Shown here piece after piece: positions 13,277-61,250 of a DNA stretch of 64,000 nt. Location: contig NC_055989.1 in assembly GCF_018446385.1 (NCBI RefSeq), forward strand, positions 130,537,004 to 130,601,003, read 5' to 3'. The notes under the pieces are model-generated. The model ran no database searches. It saw nothing but the letters and a program-made list of their open reading frames with translations, and was not told the DNA's origin. Both the position numbers and the translations under genes were made by a program. How positions within the stretch are numbered: the first letter of the stretch is position 1; each line of letters starts with the position of its first letter. The DNA comes from Zingiber officinale (Eukaryota > Streptophyta > Magnoliopsida > Zingiberales > Zingiberaceae).

Positions 13277-16200
13277 TCAAACATTGTAAACCATTCCGAC
13301 TTCTAAAGTAGATGCATGAGGAATGTTCACCGCATAGGCAGGCCCCCTGCAATTCCTCCTTAAGAAATCATACCCGATATCGATCGCAAATCTCTTGATC
13401 AAACCGGATCCGCTCTTTGCCTTCAACTCGGTGTGCCCCAAAATGAATGCCATCCCGGCTTCCCTTGCTTCCATCAGCTCCTGAAGTTCCTCCCTCTCGC
13501 TGGTACTGATATGCGAGGGGCTCTCAGGCAAAACAAATCTCACCTTCTTCCTTCTCACAACTGGTGATTGTATCTCCCTCGAGTTCGAGGGACCAGCTGC
13601 ATCATCTGGATTCATCTCTTCTTCTTCACATAATCGTAGTCCAGCTCCGACCACTATCATTTTATCATTGTTCTTTTCTGGTCGTTCGGGTGTTCCACTC
13701 GCATGGGAAATGTTGAACTGGATGAACTCAGCGATGCTGCAGATTAAGTCCTTCTCGAACTCGATATCATCCCTGTGCACATCACGGTAGCCATACCGCA
13801 AGATGCACCTGTATACCCTGTATTCTTTCGGGCCAATTCTTCCCACAAGGAATCGCTCTTCCGGTCGGACATAAGGCACTGGGACAGACTTGATGCATAG
13901 GAACACAAGGACCTGCAGAAATGAAGTATGTCATCGAGCATTTTTCAGTTTGTCCCAAACATAACATCCAGTATCACTTTGCTCTCTAAGCACTTTGTAT
14001 ATTGAATGTAGGATGATAATACCAACTTCATCGATAAGCAAAATACCTTACGAGCATGGGAAAGTTATAACACACCATAAAGTTTAGCACCGAACAGAAT
14101 TTTCGATCGAATAGCTAAAACAATACATAGCATAACTTGTAGCTGACCTGGTGAAAGGCTGGGAGATTGGTGAGAAAGTGTGAAAAGATGACTGGAATTC
14201 CTGATACAAGTTCAGAATGGATGAGGCCAATGCCTCGCACACGAACAATTCCGAGATTAGGGCCGAGACCAAGGAGCCAGTCGATGGAGACCTTATTTTG
14301 GAGGTCGACTTCGTGCATTTTGAGTGTGCCGTAGTGCCATACATACATAATTATCATGAAGACGAACGAAAGGGCAATTGGGACCCAAGCTCCTTCTAAG
14401 AACTTGATGAGGGATGCAGAGAAGTACAATGTCTCAATCGACCCAAAGAAGAGGATGAAACATACAGCGAAAAAGATGCTCCTGTGCCAACATAAAACTA
14501 TCACAAGGGCCATCAAGCAGGTTGTAACCAACATGACGGTAATCACAGCTAACCCTGTAATCAAAACCACAAGATAACGCAAGAAACACCGAGGCTCAAA
14601 GAATTTCTCGCAAATGAACTTGAGACCAAACTGGATTGGGCATAACATACCTGATGCATTGCCCAGGCGCCTCGTGTCTCTGAAACCAACAGTTACGGCG
14701 AGGCACAGCGTCATTAACATCCAATTGATTCCCGGAATGTATATCTGTCCATGAAATTTCGACGAAGTATGAACGATCTTCACCCTAGGGAAGCAGCTCA
14801 ATGCAGAGCACTGCTTGATGATCGAGAAGGTACCAGTGATAACAGCTTGGCTTCCGACAACAGCTGCCAATATAGCAATTGCCAGAACTGGCCACCTTAA
14901 TTTCTCTAACAAAATAGTTTGTCGAGTTAGACAACAACATTAACGATAATCTTTCAGATATAGCGTCAGTACCTGGCACAGATACATAGAACCCGATATG
15001 GTAGTCACTTTCTATAATATGATGTTTCGATAGATAAGCAGCTTGTCCCATGTATGCAAGGATCAAGGAAGGATAAATCATGGAAGTAAAAGCAATCTGC
15101 TTGAAAGTACTATATATGTTAGAGATAACTAGTCGATATATCATTCACTCATCTAGAATCTCAATGCCTCGACCCTCACCTGTATCGATAACTGTGAAAA
15201 ATGCCCCAAGTCAGCATACATAGCTTCAGAACCTGCAAGAGCAATGGAAGAATCAAATGTGATCCATGTATACGATTAGAATTGAATGGAAATAGATAAG
15301 TTTATACACCTGTTATGCACAATAGTATTCCTCCCAAAGACATCCAACCTCCTCTTTGAGTTTTCTTCAGAAATTTGTACATGTAGTAGGGAGAAAGAGC
15401 TTGATACACATGAGGGTTCCAGTGAAAAATGTTGTAAACACCGATCGCGCTGATGCATATGAGCCAAGTAACGACGATCGGTGCAAACAGAAAGCCAACC
15501 CGATGTGTGCCATAGTGTTGCAGGGCAAACAAAGCAACTAATATGGCACATGCAACAGGAACCTCAACGTCTGCAAGTTGAAAGATCAGTCTTAAGTTCT
15601 CACAGCTCTGTTGTAGGAACATAAATTTCAGTTTTTTATCGCAGCAAAAGCATATGAAATTTCGGTTTCAGAGATGTGTTCAATTGGATTTCTGAGATGT
15701 GTAAGTGTTGCTCACTGGTCTACTTATCAACAGTGGATATGTAAGGATTGTGAAAAAGAAAAACTACAAACTTGAAATTAGTTGTGGAATGAATCTCTTC
15801 CCAACATTTCCAAATTTGTTCTGCTAGTTGATTAGGGTTTTAGTGATCAGATGAGAAGTAATTGCAAAAGACAAAGAACATATTAATGGTGAGATTTGGC
15901 TTACACTTGTGTTGTTCCCTGGACATGGACAACTCAAGGCCTGAAACAGCCGAGAAAACTGTAAAGAGATCACTTTTCGGTCAGGGATTGGTCAAGAACC
16001 CTAAAAAATGGAGAGAATTCAATGAATAGCCAGGAATTACCAGAAATTGCAGGTGTAAGAACGCCGTCCCCAATTACCATGCAGGTCCCAATCAGAGCAA
16101 GGATCAATAACAAGCGCTGCAGCACCTGGTGCTTCTCGAGAAGCTTCTTTACCTTAGAGGCCGCCGCTGCGCCGCCCAGCGACGCAGCGGTGCCTCCGCC

Positions 16201-16689
16201 GTCCATCTTCTTGTACGTGGAGAGGTCCTCGTCGGCGAGTTGCCCGTTGGGCAGGAATCCGACGCGGGCGTGGCGGCAGAGGAGGGAGTAGAGCGCAAAG
16301 GTGCCACCTTCGCCATTGTCATCGGCGCGGAGCACGATACAGACGTACTTGAGAAGTGGAACAAGAGTGAGCGTCCAGAAGACGAAGGATAGCACACCGT
16401 AGATCTCCTCATTCGTCTCCGAGTGCTCGATGTCCTCCGCGAAGGTGTTCTTATACACGTACAGCGGCGACGTGCTCAGGTCGCCGTACACCACTCCCAA
16501 ACTCTGATACGCCAATGTCACCACCGTCCACCACGAACCCTTCTTCTGCCACACCAGACTCATCAAACAAGAAGCAAAAGGGGGAAACCTGATCTTTTCA
16601 TAGTTTCTCGAAGTAAAAAACTTGCAAAATACCTTTCCCAGGTCAAGGTAACTGCCGCCGCCGCCGCCGCCGCCGCGTTCGAGATCCAT
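13277..16689 (-). CDS. HAK/KUP/KT-type potassium transporter
   Basis: A K+ uptake carrier of the KUP/HAK/KT family, a multi-pass membrane protein. Nine exons on the minus strand, listed 5' to 3': 16633-16689, 16041-16545, 15905-15958, 15310-15570, 15180-15232, 14973-15096, 14651-14905, 14148-14554, 13277-13912. They give 783 residues, the usual length. Seen: [76 protein letters not shown]-type membrane stretches in exon 7 and [22 protein letters not shown]. The C-terminus ends in LEVGMVYNV. The start chosen is the ATG of [19 protein letters not shown]; no ATG lies just upstream in frame. The first intron (16546-16632) is 87 bases, a multiple of three without a stop, so retaining it would insert 29 residues. 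The glycine run is coded by a CCG/CGG-rich tract. The GC-rich first exons contrast with the AT-rich introns. Confidence 0.96.
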
Positions 16690-17233
16690 GCTTGAAGAAG
16701 TCAAGAACTCACCGAGCTCATTACAAACGCAACAGCTTCATCTTCACAGAATCACTGCCAAGATTGCATCTTTAGGGCCTCTGCCCAACGAAAAGCCATC
16801 AACAAGCAAGCAGGAAGACGAGGAGTTCATCTGGAGGTCAAGTGGGTGAGGAGGGAACACCTAAGGACGCTCTATATGGTGGAGAGAGCTAGGTCAAACA
16901 ACGGGGTAAAATAAACAAGAGAAAAAGGGGGCGAGATTAGAATATTGCGAGTGAATGCGAGAGCTTAATTTAACAGAGCAGGTGAGGTCAATTGGAGCAG
17001 CAGAAACTATGGTTTCAGTTACAAATTGAGAGCGAAGGGAAGAAGAGGTAGCAGCCATTGAAAGACCTGCAGAAGGTGCGGCTGGTGCGTTGCGCTTCGC
17101 TGTGGTGGTACCATCTCCCACGCTTGCTGTCTCCCTGCTTGCTTTCCTGCTTTTGAGGGCATTCCAAGCTCAAGCTGAGCGGTGACGAGCTGGCATGAGG
17201 ACGTGGAAAGCACTACGAGGAGCAGAGCAGAAC

Positions 17234-27169: not shown

Positions 27170-29290
27170 CAACTCCACGATGTTGATTTCTCTAAATCCA
27201 AATGCATTAGATTTCTGACTTGACACTGATTGTTTCCATGTCCTAAAGTCACATCCTCTTGACTTACTAAGTTGTAGAGCATATGTTTTTTTTTTTTAAA
27301 TCAACCTTTGTGTCAATTAACACAAAATTATATCCTTATTTTGGAGCTTGATAACCACTCTTGCACAACAACACTAATACACTATCTTTCCTAAACTTCG
27401 CTCTTTCTCTTCTATCCTAGTTTTAGAATTTCTATACTTCTAGGTCCATCGATGAGTTTTAGTCTCTAGTGATCTTTGATTGGACTCAATCCAAATGCAT
27501 TAGGTTCTTGGCTTGACATTGAATGTCACCATACCCTAAAGCGACAATCTCACGACCTTCTAGACTATATGCCACTTGTTTTAAGAAAATGAGTGTTTGT
27601 GTCAATTGGCATAAAATCATACACTCATGTTAAAACTTGATAATCACTCTTGCATAATGATACGGTGCATAAAGGTACGACATGGTCGTTGGGAGTTAAG
27701 GAGATGTGACAGTCAGAAGTTAAGAGGATATGACAGTCAAAAGTCAAGGAGACGTGGCAGTTAGAAGTCAAGGGGATGTGACAGTCAACAGTCAGGAGGG
27801 CGTAACTGTCAACAGTCAGGAGGGCGTGACTGTCAACAGTCAGGAGGGCGTGGTGGTCAACAGCTAGGGAAAGAAGAGGTAGGACAGTTTGATATCGTCA
27901 GACGTAGGATGCCCGGTCGGGTGCTTACAGATCAGGATCCTATATCTGAATCAGGATGCGCAATCGGGATGATACCTGACCTACTCCAACTGGTTGGATT
28001 TTCACAGCTCGGTTATATCCATGCCTGATCCTTTCAATAGGTCAACTCTCAGTCAGCTCTTGAGCAATTTCACCACAGCTCTCCCTGCCCTTCAAGACTT
28101 AGTCCAAGTGCTATACCTAATAGATCATCCCGAGCTGCCCTATTCATACTCGAGTGGGACAGAAGGTGTTACACGACAACAAGGTCAGAGAATCGTAATC
28201 ACTTGTCAGAGAAGAACTACTGTATGCTAGAGAATATTTCAATGGTTTGCGGTCATCTGCGAACAGAACCTTCTTCCAGTCCACAAGAGGGTGTCACGCA
28301 TCCTCCATCACCAGACAGGTCTTGACACCCGACATTCCCTAACATCAGTTAGGCTCCAGAGGTACACACTGTTATATAAAAAGGGAGGTCCTTTCCCTTG
28401 AGCAGGTATGCTCTCTCGCACATTCACACTTATCTTCTACTTTTCTTTCTCCTTCGTACATTATTTTTTTTGGGGAAAAAGTACTTGACTTGAGTGTTGA
28501 AGGGCCTACTCTGGAGACTTTTTCCTTGATTTCTGGCCTCTAATATTCTGTGTGGTTGGCTAAGTGTGCGCAGAGTTCAAGTACCGCCACCTCAGCTATC
28601 ATTGTCCGTCAGCACCACGTGGGGGGCCGTTTTTGTGGGTATATACGAGAAGGGTGTCCTAGTCGCTTCTCCGTCAACGCCAGCAACAGCTCATCTGACC
28701 TTCATCTGACTCATATTCCGGACAGGATCACATAACAACACTACTTCCCCTACACATCCTTATTCCTCTCCATACCCTAATTTCAAAATTTATGTACATC
28801 AGGGTCCATTATCTGGATTCATCAATAAGTTTTGGCTAAAATATATAGATGGTTCTAGCCATATCTGATTGAACCCAATCTATGTGTTTTAAGTTCCTGG
28901 CTTGACAATGAGTGTCGCCATGCTCTAAAGCTACCGACTCATGACCTTCTAAGCTTTAGACCATTTGTTTTCAAAAAATCAACCTTGACATAAAGTCATA
29001 TCTTCATCTTAGAGTCTAATAATCACTCTTGCATAACAACACTACCTTCCCTATACTCTCCTATTCCTTTCCATGCCCTAGTTTTATAGTTTTTGTACTT
29101 TTGGGTCCATCAATAAGTTTCAATTAAAATTAATTAATAGTTCTAGCTAGCCATCTCTGATGGGATCTAATCTAAGTGCATTAGTTTCTAGCTTGAAACT
29201 GAGTGTCACCATGCCCTAAAGACATAACTGCATGACCTTCTAAGCTGTAGAGCAAATATGTCTTCAAATTGGAGTCTGATAATTACGTTT
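27170..29290. repeat. Array 2 of the ~290-bp tandem repeat, split by a solo LTR
   Basis: The same landmarks as array 1 occur at 27231, 27524, 28913 and 29204. Removing the LTR and one target copy (1078 bases) brings the middle spacing to about 311 bases, so this is again four units. Array 2 plus the downstream promoter copy forms the second unit of a segmental duplication. Confidence 0.83.
27658..28730. mobile_element. Solo LTR of a retrotransposon (1073 bp)
   Basis: The element starts TGATACGG and ends GGATCA (TG...CA) and is flanked by the 5-bp duplication CATAA at 27653-27657 and 28731-28735. It lies inside a repeat unit whose uninterrupted consensus (CTTGCATAACAACAC) is seen in the sister units, so both edges are exact. 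Inside are a TATA box (TATATAAAAAGGG near 28.38 kb) and a short tandem repeat of ~24-bp units at 27.7-27.87 kb (CAACAGTCAGGAGGGCGTGA). No coding part is present. The superfamily is unresolved; the layout suits Ty3/gypsy. Confidence 0.88.
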
Positions 29291-44179: not shown

Positions 44180-44845
44180 ATGAAGAAGCTCGCCAAGGGC
44201 CAGGCACGGCGGGTCCACCCGGCCCCGTTTCCCAACCATCTGGCTGCGCTCCCCGCAGCGGTGATGGCGCTGGCGGCGGTTCTGGCGCCCGAGGAGCAGG
44301 AGGTACTGGCCTACTTGCTCTCCAGCAACGGCGGCGCCGGAGGAGGCGGAGGGGAGAGGCGGAGGGAGTGGTCGCCGCAGCGGCCGACGCACCTTCCGGA
44401 GCTGGGCTGCGGGTGCTTCGGGTGTTACACGAGCTTCTGGGCGCGGTGGGACGCGTCGCCCAACCGCCAGGTCATCCACCGCATCATCGACGCGGTGGAG
44501 GAAGGACTGGCCTCCAAGGAGCGGGAGCGCGGCCGCCGCCGCCGGCGCAGCGGCCGCGGCGGACGGAAAGGTGCTGCCTTTAAGGCCGCGGCGGCGCCGG
44601 AGGAAGGCAAAGTAGCTCGGCCTCAGCTTTTTCCATCGTCCGATGACGACGGCCGTGAATACGACGATACGACCAGCAGCGTTGACGGAGCGGATGAGGA
44701 GGCGCCGCCGGTAGCGGCGGCAGAGGAGAAGGTGGAGGACGGAACGAGTGATGGCGACAACTCTGCCATTAATGCGATCGACAAGAGCTCTGTGAGGAGA
44801 TTTATGACCTTCATCGGTGAAAGAGTTTGGGGCGTCTGGAACTGA
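44180..44845 (+). CDS. Conserved plant protein of unknown function, single GC-rich exon (221 residues)
   Basis: Starts MKKLAKGQARRVHPAPFPNH and ends VRRFMTFIGERVWGVWN. From memory this layout belongs to an uncharacterised angiosperm family: a basic N-terminus, a hydrophobic helix LAALPAAVMALAAVLAPEEQ followed by EVLAYLL, a Cys-containing block LGCGCFGCYTSFWARWDASP then NRQVIHRIIDAVEEG, an Arg-rich low-complexity linker, an acidic Asp/Glu-rich region, and a conserved C-terminal SVRRF-FIGERVWGVW box. No signal peptide or clear membrane span; the paired CxC..C residues may bind metal, which is speculation. The ATG at 44180 is chosen over an in-frame upstream non-family extension because the family begins MK-basic-VHPAP. 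Codons are strongly GC-rich (GGC/GCG runs), unlike neighbours. Confidence 0.82.
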   Translation: MKKLAKGQARRVHPAPFPNHLAALPAAVMALAAVLAPEEQEVLAYLLSSNGGAGGGGGERRREWSPQRPTHLPELGCGCFGCYTSFWARWDASPNRQVIHRIIDAVEEGLASKERERGRRRRRSGRGGRKGAAFKAAAAPEEGKVARPQLFPSSDDDGREYDDTTSSVDGADEEAPPVAAAEEKVEDGTSDGDNSAINAIDKSSVRRFMTFIGERVWGVWN

Positions 44846-45904
44846 ATCCACAAGAAAAGGAAGGATTTTTGTTACTAAAATGGGTTAGAATTCGATCTCC
44901 CCTTTCCTGTTCCTGATCGAGGTAGTCGTCTTCTTCCTTCCTCCTGTAAATTTTCTGCTTTGTTGGAACTCAAAACAGAGTTCTTTTGCTTCATGTAAAA
45001 AATCGCTCCTTTTAAGAACCAAACTGTTCTATCATTAAGAAATTTCATCCTAACTTTCATTTGCTATGAACAAATCTATTCGATGGAGTGAAAGTGAAAC
45101 AAAAAAAACACATAAAATTTACTCCTTTTTGCGATTATCTTTTTAAAGTTTAATCTATTATTATCAAATTCGATAAGAAGGACTTTGAAAAAGAAAGACA
45201 AAATAAAAGTAAATTGGCTTACAATTTATTATTAGGATTTGGAAATCTATGAGAAGATTTTGACGGAAAATATAAAAAGGATTTTGTTGGCATTTGTAGA
45301 GACAAAAGAGAGTGGGTGATGTTAAGCCCAAGGACGGAACAGTAGCAGCATCTTCATGCTTTGGAATTCCCACAGCAACAGCAGACAAATAAAAGGGTTT
45401 AGTTAACTTTTCCATGTTTCGAGGATGTTGTCGATACCTACGAAGCTCACACAATTTCAATTTTTAAAAATAAAAATTAAAGGGCAAAAATTAGAATTAC
45501 GCCCCAAGTTAACAAAAATATAGTGTTAGCATTTTTTCTCCTTCTAAAAACAGTCGTCCCTCTCGTAATTTTATCGGGTTTTACTTATTATTATTATTAT
45601 GATAAAAAAAAACTAAAATATAAGTGAGGTGTCATCTGGACGATTCTGAAAATAAAGGTGTTATTTTGACTTTTTTTTACTAAATTATTTATAATTTTTT
45701 AAAGCTCATTCATAGATTTGGTAAAAAGAGTTAAACAAGGTCAAGCTCAATTTGGGCTCAATCGACCCATTTAGATGGTGTACCATAATTTTATTTTATT
45801 TAATTAATGAAGAAGATTAGAACCAATTTCATAAAAAATTAGAAAATAGAAATTTTGAATAAAAAAAATGCAGAAAACAATAATCAGAATTATATCAATT
45901 TTCT

Positions 45905-46599: not shown

Positions 46600-46767
46600 C
46601 TAATGGCCTGGGCCTTTGCTGCTGGGTCCAGAGTTGGCCACTTTTGCTAGCACCACACCTCCATTGATGGACCTTGATCCTTCCACCACATTCATGGACA
46701 TGAACAGCAACGTCACTGCAACAACAAGCATCATCATCATCACTGCCATGGAGCTTGAATTCATCAT
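46600..46767 (-). CDS. PIP/PIPL-type secreted signalling peptide precursor (55 residues)
   Basis: A short minus-strand frame starting with ATGATG at 46767 and ending TAG at 46600. The N-terminus (MMNSSSMAVMMMMLVVAVTL, then LLFMSMNVVEG) is a clear signal peptide with a hydrophobic core at residues 7-24. A short variable region follows, and the extreme C-terminus is SGPSSKGPGH. This matches the SGPSxxGxGH motif that defines the plant PAMP-induced secreted peptide (PIP/PIPL) family, whose mature C-terminal peptides act outside the cell; AtPIP1 signals through RLK7. At 55 residues it is at the short end of the family. One TATATATA box lies 40 bases upstream and a W-box (TTGACC) about 90 bases upstream, fitting defence induction. 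Single exon. Alternatives such as IDA or CEP are less likely because their C-terminal motifs differ. Confidence 0.84.
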   Translation of the reverse strand: MMNSSSMAVMMMMLVVAVTLLFMSMNVVEGSRSINGGVVLAKVANSGPSSKGPGH

Positions 46768-46806
46768 CTTCTATTGAATGGAAGAGATAGATAGCTCGTT
46801 TGGCTC

Positions 46807-46814
46807 TATATATA
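46807..46814 (-). promoter_or_regulatory. TATA box of the PIP-like gene
   Basis: TATATATA within CTATATATAG on the minus strand, 40 bases before the ATG. That leaves a very short 5' UTR if transcription starts about 30 bases downstream. A TTGACC W-box lies at 46856-46861 on the same strand. Confidence 0.65.
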
Positions 46815-46861
46815 GAAAGAGAGGGTTAGGGTTAGGTTTCAGAAGTTGGGGTTTTGGTCAA

Positions 46862-48200
46862 AAGATCTGCAAGCGAGGGTTTGAAAAACCATGAAAAATG
46901 CCATGTTGTTTGCGTGTGTGGAATTTATGTGGGTTGACAAAATGGGAGGGTTTTGATACACGAGTTGTGGGGGTCACACACCTTTGTTCCTCCCTTCATT
47001 AATTTTGAAGCTAGTAGTGTTTAGTAAACTTTTGATTGAGATCTCTCTTCGAATATAATGGCTACCTGTCGGTGTTCCTTAGATTTAGGTGTTAATTTGA
47101 CAGATGATTAGTGAGTGATTACGGTTGTTTTCGGTGGGTATTAGTTGGAAGAGAAGGATTAGTGATCTTTTATAGCTGGAACTGAGTTTGGATTTTTGTA
47201 TGCCGACAACTTGTTGTTGAGTTGTGTGCGCACACTGGGAGACGGCAAGAGAGCAAACTTAAGCTTGTTGTTGTCAATATTTAGATTTGTTAGTCCTTTT
47301 CATTGTTTGTTTGTTTTGTTTTCTTTTTCAGAGTTGCTCAAGGTGTTTGTTTGTCAACCAGTGGGGGCTACGAAATTTCGGTGTGTTCAAAGTTTTTGAC
47401 CTGCAAATGTTCAATCTTTGAGGCTTTGATTGAACAGAAGAGTGAAGATCGAACACGAGTTGGTTAAATCCAACACTGCAGCAACAACAACAACAACAAC
47501 AAAAACCCCTCGTTGACAATAACTTGCGATAAATTTTTTACAAAAAATCATTGCAAAAAAACTTTGTGACGAATTTTGTAACAAAATTTTTTTCGTCGCA
47601 AATTTGTCATTACAAAATTTTATCATGAAAAAAAATTAGTCACAAAATTTATAACAAATAATATTTTACCACAAAATTTATTAGAAAATTAGCCACTAAT
47701 TTTGAATTTGCAACCAAAAGAATTTTGAACAAAATTTCATGGCGAGAGACACTTTTTCGTTGCAAATTTTACCAAAAAAAAAATAATCCATAGCAAAATT
47801 TGCCACCAAAATGTCATCTTGTTTTCTATTCAAATACTGAAACAAAACAGTTAGATGAATTGACCTAATTTATTACCAACAAATAGATGAGCTTTCATCG
47901 AAAAATAATTTAGATTAGTACACTTGATGAAATCATCTGTAACAACACCATATATGTTTTTAGCTGCACCCGAATGCAACCAGAAAAGCTAAAGCAAACA
48001 TTCTATTGATCAAAGCTAGTAATATAATTGATTCTGTGTGAAGTCAATAGAGATGACGTGTTGGGTAGTTGACTTTGTTGTTGACTGGATAAAAACTCTG
48101 GGATGGAGAATAGATGATACCTGGTACTCCTTCTTGCGCACACCGCAAAAAGAGCAAAGGGGAGCGTTAGAGCAAGAATTAGAGATAGCGCCAATAACAC
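46862..48200. other. Intergenic stretch with degenerate ACAAAATTT repeats
   Basis: This should hold the remaining promoter of the PIP-like gene. An (AAC)n tract lies at 47481-47503. From 47.51 to 47.85 kb, variants of GTCACAAAATTT / GTCGCAAATTT recur in both orientations every 20-40 bases, as in subterminal regions of DNA transposons. I found no matched ends and no gene. Confidence 0.5.
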
Positions 48201-48279
48201 AGACACTCCGATGCTCCCTAGTATACATTCACCCATTCTGACTTTGACAACTGTGACCTAGAGACGATTCACCTAATCT

Positions 48280-53924: not shown

Positions 53925-56900
53925 CACTTATACTAAAAGACTATGCTGCCATATACCCTACCATACATCTGATTCCCAACCCTTCAACATGCTCATCAAA
54001 AGCTCTTTCCTTAAGGACCTTAGTGAAAGGATCTCCTAGGTTATCACCTGATGCAATTTAGGCGGCAACAACTTCTCCTCATTATATGATGACTCGTATT
54101 GGGTGGTACTTGCGCTCTATTGTATTTACTTGCCTTATGGACTTATGATTTCTTTGAGTTTGCTACTGCACCACTATTAATACAATAAATTGTAATAATT
54201 TTTGGGCAAACCAGAAATCATGTCTAAGTCCATTATGAAGTTTCTGAGCCATATAACTTCTATGACCGCCTCAAAGGCTGCCACATACTCAGCTTCTATG
54301 GTGGAGTTCGGAAAAGCTCCTATGCTTAATACTCCTCCATTGTTATGGCTTCACCTCCTAAAGTAAACACAAAACCCCGAGGTTGACTTACTATTGTCCC
54401 TATCTGATTGGAAGTCTAAATCCGTGTAACCTATAGGGAGCAAATCATCTGCCTTGTAAACTAGCATATAATCTCTAGTCCCTCTAAGGTACTTTAATAT
54501 ATGCTTTACGACAGTCCAGTGTCCCGATCTTGGATTACTTTGATATCTGCTAACCATGCCCACGGTAAAATAGATATCCTATCTCGTGCATAGCATATAT
54601 TAGGTTTCCTACAGTAGAAGCATAAGGAACTGCTGTCATGTCTTTTATCTCTTTTGATGTCTTCGAAGACATCTTTTTAGATAAAGATACTCCATACTAA
54701 AAAGGTAGAAAAACATTTCTTGGAGTCTTGCATGCTAAAACGAGTTAGGATACTATCGATATATGAAGCTCGGGATAAGCACAACATTCTTTTCTTGTGA
54801 TCCCTTATTACTTTGATCTCAAGAATATGTGCGCATTCTCCTAAGTCCTTCATATTGAATTGCTTGGACAACCATACCCTTACTTCCGACAACACTTTAA
54901 TATTATTTCCAACTACCAAAAATGTCATCTACGTATAGTACAAGAAATACCACCACGTTTCCATCACACTTCTTGTATACACAAGACTCATCCCGACACT
55001 GAATAAATCCATAAGTATGGATTACTTCATTAATTCGGATGTTTCCAAGACCTTGAAGTTTTTTTCAGTCCATAAATAGACCGATTGAGCTTTCATTCAA
55101 GATACTCTTTGCCCTTTTCAATGAACCCCTCTGGTTGCTTTATATGGATGCTTTCTTCAAGACTTCCATTAAGGAAAGCTGTCTTGACATCCACTTGCCA
55201 AATCTCATAATCCATATGAGCAGCAATAGATAAAAGAATCTGGATAGAACTAAGCATGACTACCGGTAAAAGGTTTCCCTTTTTCAACATGCCTTGCTTT
55301 GAAAGTTTCCACCTTTCCGTCTGCCCCTCTTTTTCTATTGTAGACTTATTTTCACCCAATGGCTTTTACACCATTTGGTGGTTCTATAAGCTCCCAAACT
55401 CTATTAGAATACATAGATTATATTTCAGTATTCATTGCTCTTTACTAAGATGCTGCATCTTTATCTTGGAATGCTTTATCATATGTCCAGAGATCAGGTT
55501 CATGTTCACAAGGGCTCTAGTCCAAAGACTCATGAATCTTTCATGTTGCCTTAACAACCCTCCCACTACGACCAGACACTTTCTGCAATTGTGTATAATT
55601 TGTGATACGTGTTGCAGTTTCTTGTGATATTTCATCTTGTACAATTGGTACTAGATTAGACATGTCTTTTATTATTTCCTTAAGAACAAATTTACTTATG
55701 GGCTTGTAATTCATTACATAGTCCTCTTCTAAAAATTGGGCATTGGTGCTTACAATGATCTTCTGATTTTAGGACTATAAACCTCCTTTCATTTCTCTAG
55801 GATAACCCACAAACAAGTGATCTTCTGTCCAACTTATCAGTGTCTCCCTTCAGCACATATGCTGGACTACCCCAAATCTGAATATGCTTCAGACTAGGCT
55901 TACGCCCATTCTATAATTCTATGAGAGTAGAGGGTTCTAACTTTAGAAGGTACTATGTTCACTTATGTTTCCAGAGTATATCCTCAAAACGAATTTGGTA
56001 ATTCTGAATAACCCATCATTGATCTAACTATTTCCATAAGAGTCCTATTCCTTCGTTCTACTACATCATTCTATTGGGGTGTACCAGGTGTAGTCAGTTG
56101 TGATTGAATCTCAACTTCTGATAAGTGACTCCTAAACTCTCCTAAGAGGTACTCGCCACTACGATCTCACCATAGTGTCTTGATACTTTTACCTTGACAT
56201 TTCTCCACATCAGTCTTGTACTCTTTGAACTCATCAAAACACTTAGACTTGCGGCGCATCAAGTAAATATATCCGTATCTCGAATAGTCGTCTATAAAAG
56301 AGGCGAAATATTCGAAACCACCTCTTTCCTGGATAGTCATAGGTCCACACAAATCAGAATGAACCAATTCCAACACTTCTTTGGTTTTATACCCCTTAGA
56401 CTTAAAAAGCCTCTTTGGTCATTTTTCCTTCCAAGTAAGACTTGCAGGTTGGAAAATTTTTCACCACTAATGAACCCAAAAGTTCATTGGCTATTATCCT
56501 TTAAATCCTACTCAAGTCAATATGACCTAGCCTTAGATGCCAAAGATATGATTGGTTCATTTTAGAAGGTTGCTTTCTCTTATTAGAGTTAGAAGATGTG
56601 TTATTAATTTCCATTTGTTGCATCGTGGGAGTTATTGGATTATAAATTGTCAACCAATGTACCAGAATAGATAACTTCCCTATTATTCTTGATAACAACT
56701 TTGTTATAAAAAAAATAGAATATCAAGTTCTTTGATAGTTTAGAAACTGAAATCAAGTTCTTTCTAAACTTGGTACATAAAAATAATTTCTCAAAATTCA
56801 TATTTTATTCCTATCAGAGGATAAACATCTCCCACTGCAACAACTGCTACTTTTACAGTAGTGCCCATGTAGACGGTGTTTTCCTTTTCATATAGTTGTC

Positions 56901-60284: not shown

Positions 60285-60820
60285 TAACGACCACCCTTCT
60301 TACTACTACTACACTCTAAGGATGACCGTTACTTGACTACTAACTCTACTTAACCGGTATGATAAAAATCACATGGAAACCCTACCGAAAAATTTCGACA
60401 GAGTCTCCCCTGTACCGGTGACCATATCCGTAAATACATACAGAGTATACTCAGCCACAGGCGGCTGGAACATATATTTTCACAACCACGCAGTTTAATA
60501 AATCAAAACATGCAGGTAATGAAAAGCGGAAACATAACTTCTTACTACAAAATTTTCTTATCAACTTAATAAGAAATTAAACTAAACAAATTCTTAAACT
60601 AAGTGAGTTCTTTAGCTAAGTCCAAAGGATCTCCATAGTCCACACATCACACACCGTCACAGCATCTCCTTGTCGCCTTCTTCCTTATACTTTAGCTTTT
60701 CCTTTATCTGCAGTAGGAGGAAAATAGTATCTATAAGCTAAAAGCTTAGTGAGCGTTATCCTACTCACAAAAACTCGATATGCATGTATATAAATAAAAC
60801 ATGCTAAAACTGAATGCTAA

Positions 60821-61250
60821 CATGTAAAGCTACTCATGCTCATAAATAGCAAAGAAATCAACTAACTGAAAAGCTAACATGTATAGCTACTCATGCTCAT
60901 AAATAGCAAAGGAATCATGCTAACTGAAATACTAAACATGTATAACTAATCATGCTCATAAATAGCAAAGGAATCATGCTAACTGAAATACTAAACATGT
61001 ATAGCTAATCATGCTCATAAATAGCAAAGGAATCATGCTAACTGAAATACTAAACATGTATAACTAATCATGCTCATAAATAGCAAAGGAATCATGCTAA
61101 CTGAAATACTAAACATGTATAGCTAATCATGCTCATAAATAGCAAAGGAATCATGCTAACTGAAATACTAAACATGTATAGCTAATCATGCTCATAAATA
61201 GCAAAGGAATCATACTAACTGAAATACTAAACATGTACAGCTAATCATAG
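60821..61250. repeat. 59-bp minisatellite, about seven units
   Basis: Units begin CATGTATAGCTAATCATGCT at 60821, 60878, 60937, 60996, 61055, 61114 and 61173, with a partial one at 61232. The central units are almost identical and the edge units more diverged, the usual mark of unequal exchange or slippage within an array. Confidence 0.92.

Follow-up and report, generated by a model that had tools for sequence, protein, structure and literature searches.

The gene described here lies on the minus strand of the window, by which we mean the whole 64-kb stretch of ginger DNA that was analysed (C4:130537004-130601003 of a 3.09-Gb assembly comprising 211 contigs). Its single-exon coding sequence, for a PIP/PIPL-type precursor, occupies positions 46600..46767, stop codon included, and was delineated by reading the open reading frame (ORF) and by comparison with an allele that has the same frame and no indel. 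It runs from ATG to TAG and translates to MMNSSSMAVMMMMLVVAVTLLFMSMNVVEGSRSINGGVVLAKVANSGPSSKGPGH, a cysteine-free protein of 55 residues, which confirms the length proposed in the initial annotation. An in-frame stop sits two codons 5' of the first ATG and, therefore, the precursor could not be extended without an intron. The C-terminal end of the protein is SGPSSKGPGH, with the stop directly after it: this is the exact SGPSxxGxGH terminus that had been claimed, and across the six frames of the window the pattern S[GAV]PSxxGxGH followed by a stop occurs a single time, in this ORF. Given the base composition of the window and independent letters, the chance expectation for SGPSxxGxGH plus stop is 1.8e-6 occurrences per window and 0.085 per 3.09 Gb. 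Short ORFs as such are common, there being 176 ATG-initiated ORFs of 40–120 residues in the window, 12 of which have a hydrophobic core (mean of at least +2.4) near the start; nevertheless, these expectations, together with the retention of motif, frame and TATA box in the second allele and the occurrence of the same ending in paralogues (see below), make it extremely unlikely that we are dealing with a functionless chance ORF. Searches with the 55-residue protein matched no Pfam family and no relative among PDB sequences. Scans of bacterial and archaeal genomes and of viral contigs gave, respectively, 216 and 43 stretches that fit a pattern, none of them confirmed as relatives, and, as these collections contain no plant genomes, they are silent on plant orthologues. 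As RNA, the transcript region shows no unusual folding, its stability being matched by 157 of 200 shuffles (z 0.75).

Three parts can be distinguished in the precursor. The predicted signal peptide (residues 1–30; 46678..46767, minus strand) was assigned from hydropathy and a simple -3,-1 rule: its methionine- and valine-rich core reaches a best 11-residue hydropathy mean of +2.9, and the rule places the cut after G30, between VVEG and SRS, with S33 and G36 also allowed. The strong signal peptide of the initial annotation is thus upheld, as a prediction, by both the hydrophobic N-terminus and the permitted cut sites. Met7 (46749) is a possible alternative start, and the hydrophobic core is kept with either one. 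There follows a short variable region, SRSINGGVVLAK (residues 31–42; 46642..46677, minus strand), delimited by ORF reading and alignment, and then the predicted mature-peptide region, VANSGPSSKGPGH (LADSGPSSKGPGH in the other allele; 46603..46641, minus strand), delimited by ORF reading and comparison of the alleles. Within the ligand, peptide position 6 is Pro (Pro48), whereas position 8 is Ser.

The TATA box and the W-box that had been noted directly upstream are both present, but the latter carries no weight. The TATA element, CTATATATAG (46806..46815, minus strand), was recognized by sequence and is found at the same place in the other allele. The string TATATATA starts 47 bases 5' of the ATG, with a chance probability of ~0.017 in 80 bp of one strand, as against 0.12 for the looser pattern TATA[AT]A[AT] in the same 80 bp and strand; from this spacing, the transcript would start ~15 bases before the first ATG, so that initiation at Met7 is a possible alternative. 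The W-box-like TTGACC (46856..46861, minus strand) lies 94 bases 5' of the ATG, and the other allele has one at -93. There are 100 occurrences of TTGACY in the window, against 83 expected by shuffling, and the probability of one W-box within 200 bp on either strand is ~0.27, which is chance level. In ginger paralogues, TTGACY is found on some strand in five of nine upstream stretches of 200 bp, a count that adds little, as several of the nine belong to presumed alleles. Elsewhere in the window (27694-27863), a tandem array with a 24-base unit contains a W-box-like cluster.

The second allele and the genomic setting

The same ORF is present at C3:150854166-150854333, where 53 of the 55 residues are identical. 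The coding differences amount to 3 of 168 bases, all of them in codons 43–45 and none an indel, and they result in two amino-acid changes, V43L and N45D, just ahead of SGPS; the 126 coding bases for residues 1–42 are identical. Directly upstream, 202 aligned bases contain one substitution and one single-base gap, and the remaining stretches of the aligned 2.6 kb have 1.5–6.2 differences per 100 bases. So few differences cannot prove selection; the changes at residues 43 and 45 could reflect relaxed constraint ahead of SGPS. SGPSSKGPGH is exact in both alleles, neither has an internal stop, and the TATA box is kept. At a minimum match length of 150 bases, the C3 block is collinear with the window from ~0.3 to 58 kb, with insertions and some rearranged pieces after 48.7 kb. 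We considered the C3 copy as a polyploid homeologue and rejected this: the ginger assembly is described as haplotype-resolved (PMC8342452) and, therefore, the C3 copy is an allele, C3 and C4 being partner chromosomes of one diploid. The two also differ 1 kb 3' of the gene, where ~370 bases in the C3 allele (near 150852816-150853184) are missing at window positions 45587-45597.

In searches of the ginger genome, the two alleles were the only matches to the window protein, to the 25 residues at its C-terminus and to the DNA of the gene. Likewise, for the 741 bp surrounding the gene, the sole matches in the ginger genome at E ≤ 0.001 are the stretch itself and the allele; this search skips simple repeats, and a missing match is no proof of rarity. 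The gene had been described as standing alone in a repeat-rich spacer; a dispersed repeat, which is context outside the gene, starts ~0.7 kb upstream (47480..48230, no strand assigned). The repeat was recognized by its genome matches and has at least 43 matching pieces, its own place and the allele included, from 40 scored candidates out of 259. The recognizable retroelement is more distant: a broken copia-type element (54680-56418, minus strand) is represented by two RVT_2 reverse transcriptase pieces in separate ORFs at 54.7–55.4 kb and by a weak integrase-like piece, below the cut-off, at 56.2–56.4 kb. It lies ~8 kb off, with the dispersed repeat closer, and so does not adjoin the gene, which had been placed at the edge of a retrotransposon nest.

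The nearest long ORF (44180-44845, plus strand) is convergent with the gene and lies 1.8 kb 3' of it. It has no Pfam match at E 0.001 and is multi-copy, with 18 matches in the ginger genome, its own place and the allele included. Apart from these two, five matches were taken with 8 kb and three with 1.5-kb flanks, the other eight being outside the check; looking for an ancient duplicate, we found no PIP ORF in the 8 kb 3' of the five. Loose SGPS-like matches beside two of the neighbour-ORF paralogues (L031 and L034) have neither GxGH nor a signal peptide and were discarded. Further features of the window are the exons of a K+ transporter gene with K_trans and K_trans_C domains (13277-16737, minus strand) and a tandem array of ~6 copies of a 59-base unit at 98% (60808-61248).

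PIP-type paralogues in ginger

A 20-residue query with the Arabidopsis/potato PIP1 ending led, at a weak E of 2.78, to three ORFs on C7 and C8, which end in RLPSGPSPKGPGH. With one of these as query, the ginger genome gave 14 matches, 11 of which reach the C-terminus: two on C7 and one on C8, two C5/C6 pairs, a C6/C49 pair and a C1/C2 pair. Ten of the 11 were read, the C1 copy being left out, and the counts are accordingly lower bounds; if each pair is allelic and the tandem on C7 is taken as one, there are at least about five loci besides the window gene. All ten paralogues end in KGPGH (SGPSPKGPGH in eight, SGSSPKGPGH in two), an agreement that is partly by construction, as the first of them were fetched by a PIP ending, and that comes from sequences which are not independent, as presumed alleles are among them. 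All ten also have a hydrophobic N-terminus, as judged by eye, and Pro at peptide position 8, where the window gene has Ser.

Outside these elements, the window protein and the paralogues have nothing clear in common. A BLASTP comparison with a C7 protein aligns the last ten residues alone, nine of them identical. Arg32, which sits two residues past the predicted cut, pairs with the Arg of the AARP motif in one alignment and is unpaired in a 12-sequence alignment, so its homology is uncertain; the window protein has GSRS after the signal peptide, as against AARP at four of the five other presumed ginger loci. Several paralogues in one genome that are alike mainly in the signal peptide and the C-terminus are themselves a trait of the PIP/PIPL family. 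The initial annotation had looked to syntenic homologues conserving only these two parts for support, and this pattern is seen, for the last ~10 residues, among the ginger paralogues as distinct from orthologues in other species.

The motif model that had been proposed as a further check also picks out the window gene. A hidden Markov model (HMM) of the 13 C-terminal residues, built from the ten paralogues, puts the ORF at the top of the 2036 in the window with at least 20 codons (E 0.014, the next at E 3), and the best value in the reversed window is 2.1; the test is not motif-free, the ten source sequences having been reached via a query with the PIP ending, and the alleles among these ten do not count as independent. 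With a full-length HMM of the same ten, the ORF is not singled out (E 0.97, fourth; reversed-window best 0.04) and, therefore, the homology rests on the C-terminus. The potato StPIP1 peptide, which is of PIP2 type, found no match in the ginger genome, and a query with the AtPIP2 ending matched the window gene alone.

The window gene looks like a further ginger PIP/PIPL locus, an outlier with Ser at position 8 and the shortest precursor: the paralogues, with the Met chosen, are 69–78 residues long, as against 55. Such differences might be expected of a decaying family member, once functional, whose variable region is largely gone and which is now silent or inactive, and the replacement of P8 by S, the GSRS in place of AARP, and the two amino-acid changes between the alleles beside the ligand could all be read in this way. 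Both alleles are intact, however, with no indel or stop, an exact SGPSSKGPGH and a preserved TATA box, and we consider decay improbable. As Pro is kept at position 6, Ser at position 8 need not abolish function.

Family membership and possible function

PIP/PIPL precursors, as defined in PMC4526919, consist of a signal peptide followed by an Arg, a variable region and SGPS, with GxGH at the very C-terminus. As far as can be judged from sequence, the window gene has these features, the Arg by position and with some alignment ambiguity: the ORF ends in SGPS, SK, GPGH and a stop, in agreement with the C-terminal rule, and the protein is small and cysteine-poor with a variable middle, as is typical of the family. 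At 55 residues it falls below the 69–108 residues given for the 11 Arabidopsis members (PMC4526919). Prolines at positions 6 and 8 are named as a common PIP trait in PMC4154866, which goes beyond the definition as stated in PMC4526919, and hydroxylation at position 6 of AtPIP1 is described as contributing to, or raising, activity (PMC4154866).

The two halves of the motif occur separately in other SGP-rich C-terminal ligands, the GxGH end being common to CEPs and SGPS to IDA/IDL peptides (PMC4526919), which might suggest that the gene belongs to one of these families instead. However, PIPs are described as leaving two positions free between SGPS and GxGH, in contrast to CEPs, which carry a central proline (PMC9532867); with SK at this point, the window gene is spaced like a PIP and unlike a CEP. 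Moreover, in IDA/IDL peptides SGPS is followed by (R/K)(R/K)HN (PMC4526919), a tail that is absent from the window ORF. With both spacing and tail a misfit, a CEP or IDA-like identity is very unlikely.

Among known systems, AtPIP1 (At4g28460; Hou et al. 2014, PMC4154866) resembles the window gene in its signal peptide, variable region, single C-terminal SGPSxxGxGH and Pro at position 6. It differs in its length of 72 residues and its ligand, RLASGPSPRGRGH: in the window gene, position 8 is Ser instead of Pro, and pairing K42 with the Arg of RLA leaves an extra residue ahead of SGPS. Potato StPIP1_1 has the same architecture, with a single SGPS and a GPGH end, in a precursor of 76 residues with the ligand RLPSGPSPRGPGH; it is reported to be elicitor-induced, secreted and active (PMC10667265). 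AtPIP2-type precursors have two SGPS motifs, as opposed to one here; their peptides, like those of the CEP and IDA families, are C-terminal SGP-rich ligands related to PIP1 (PMC4526919). A text search of the literature did not find the exact ending SGPSSKGPGH; related endings led to potato StPIP1_1 alone and to no ginger peptide, and there was no ginger PIP among the matches listed for ginger peptides. What looks new, the PIP/PIPL family being already known, is the ginger locus, with its unusually short precursor and no other close copies found.

Overall, we conclude that the ORF is very probably an intact, intronless PIP/PIP-LIKE gene, of which cultivated ginger carries two alleles, its family membership being predicted from the C-terminal ligand and the architecture. 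From transcription onwards, we infer each step of its action by analogy. The precursor would enter the secretory pathway via the predicted signal peptide, and the short propeptide would be trimmed, probably near K-V/L-A-N/D before SGPS, to release a peptide of ~10–13 residues ending in SGPSSKGPGH. Pro48, the equivalent of position 6 of AtPIP1, might then be hydroxylated, and an RLK7-type LRR receptor kinase, together with a SERK co-receptor, could recognize the peptide, whose C-terminal GPGH is free. By the precedent of AtPIP1 and StPIP1_1, immune or stress responses would be raised (PMC4154866, PMC10667265).

The initial annotation spoke of a PIP-like defence peptide. The PIP-like precursor is well supported by the paralogues and the motif; a role chiefly in immunity, presumed from the relatives, we put at about an even chance. 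Somewhat less probable, though still substantial, is the case of a real PIP-LIKE gene whose main role is developmental or in abiotic stress. PIPL3 is auxin-induced and apparently developmental, TOLS2/PIPL3 inhibits lateral root initiation, and PIP3-RLK7 works in salt tolerance (PMC4526919, PMC10704477, PMC9532867); additionally, as a W-box in the upstream region is no more than chance would give, the gene has no sequence mark of PAMP induction. Applied PIPL3, on the other hand, still activated defence-related processes (PMC4526919), and the sequence of the window gene does not favour development either.

More speculatively, the PIP/PIPL gene might represent a distinct minimal-precursor subclass, perhaps of the Zingiberales, with almost no propeptide, a single SGP proline remaining for hydroxylation, Ser at position 8 and ligand N-termini that differ between alleles (VAN and LAD). 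We regard this as rather doubtful; if true, a single clonal ginger plant may produce two forms of the peptide, unlike in their processing or their affinity for the receptor.

PIP peptides are reported to amplify pattern-triggered immunity in Arabidopsis and potato (PMC4154866, PMC10667265). The ginger sequences, from the window gene and at least about five further loci, are short enough for direct synthesis, and the peptides are candidates for priming a clonally propagated crop. The window gene itself adds modestly to a known family, and the greatest use may lie in the small set of ginger PIPs; as a short natural variant, with Ser8 and a minimal propeptide, the gene offers a probe of which precursor parts are needed. 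Within the set, the paralogue at C6:398984 and C49:15968 has SGSS instead of SGPS and is thus without Pro at position 6. On C7, two near-identical PIP1-like copies (C7:2546222 and C7:2580802) lie in tandem ~35 kb apart, with 99.94% identity over 1703 bases, measured to the end of the compared stretch; the match begins just inside the coding sequence, so that the tandem copy has neither the first codons nor the upstream region of the original, and its N-terminus is a different one.
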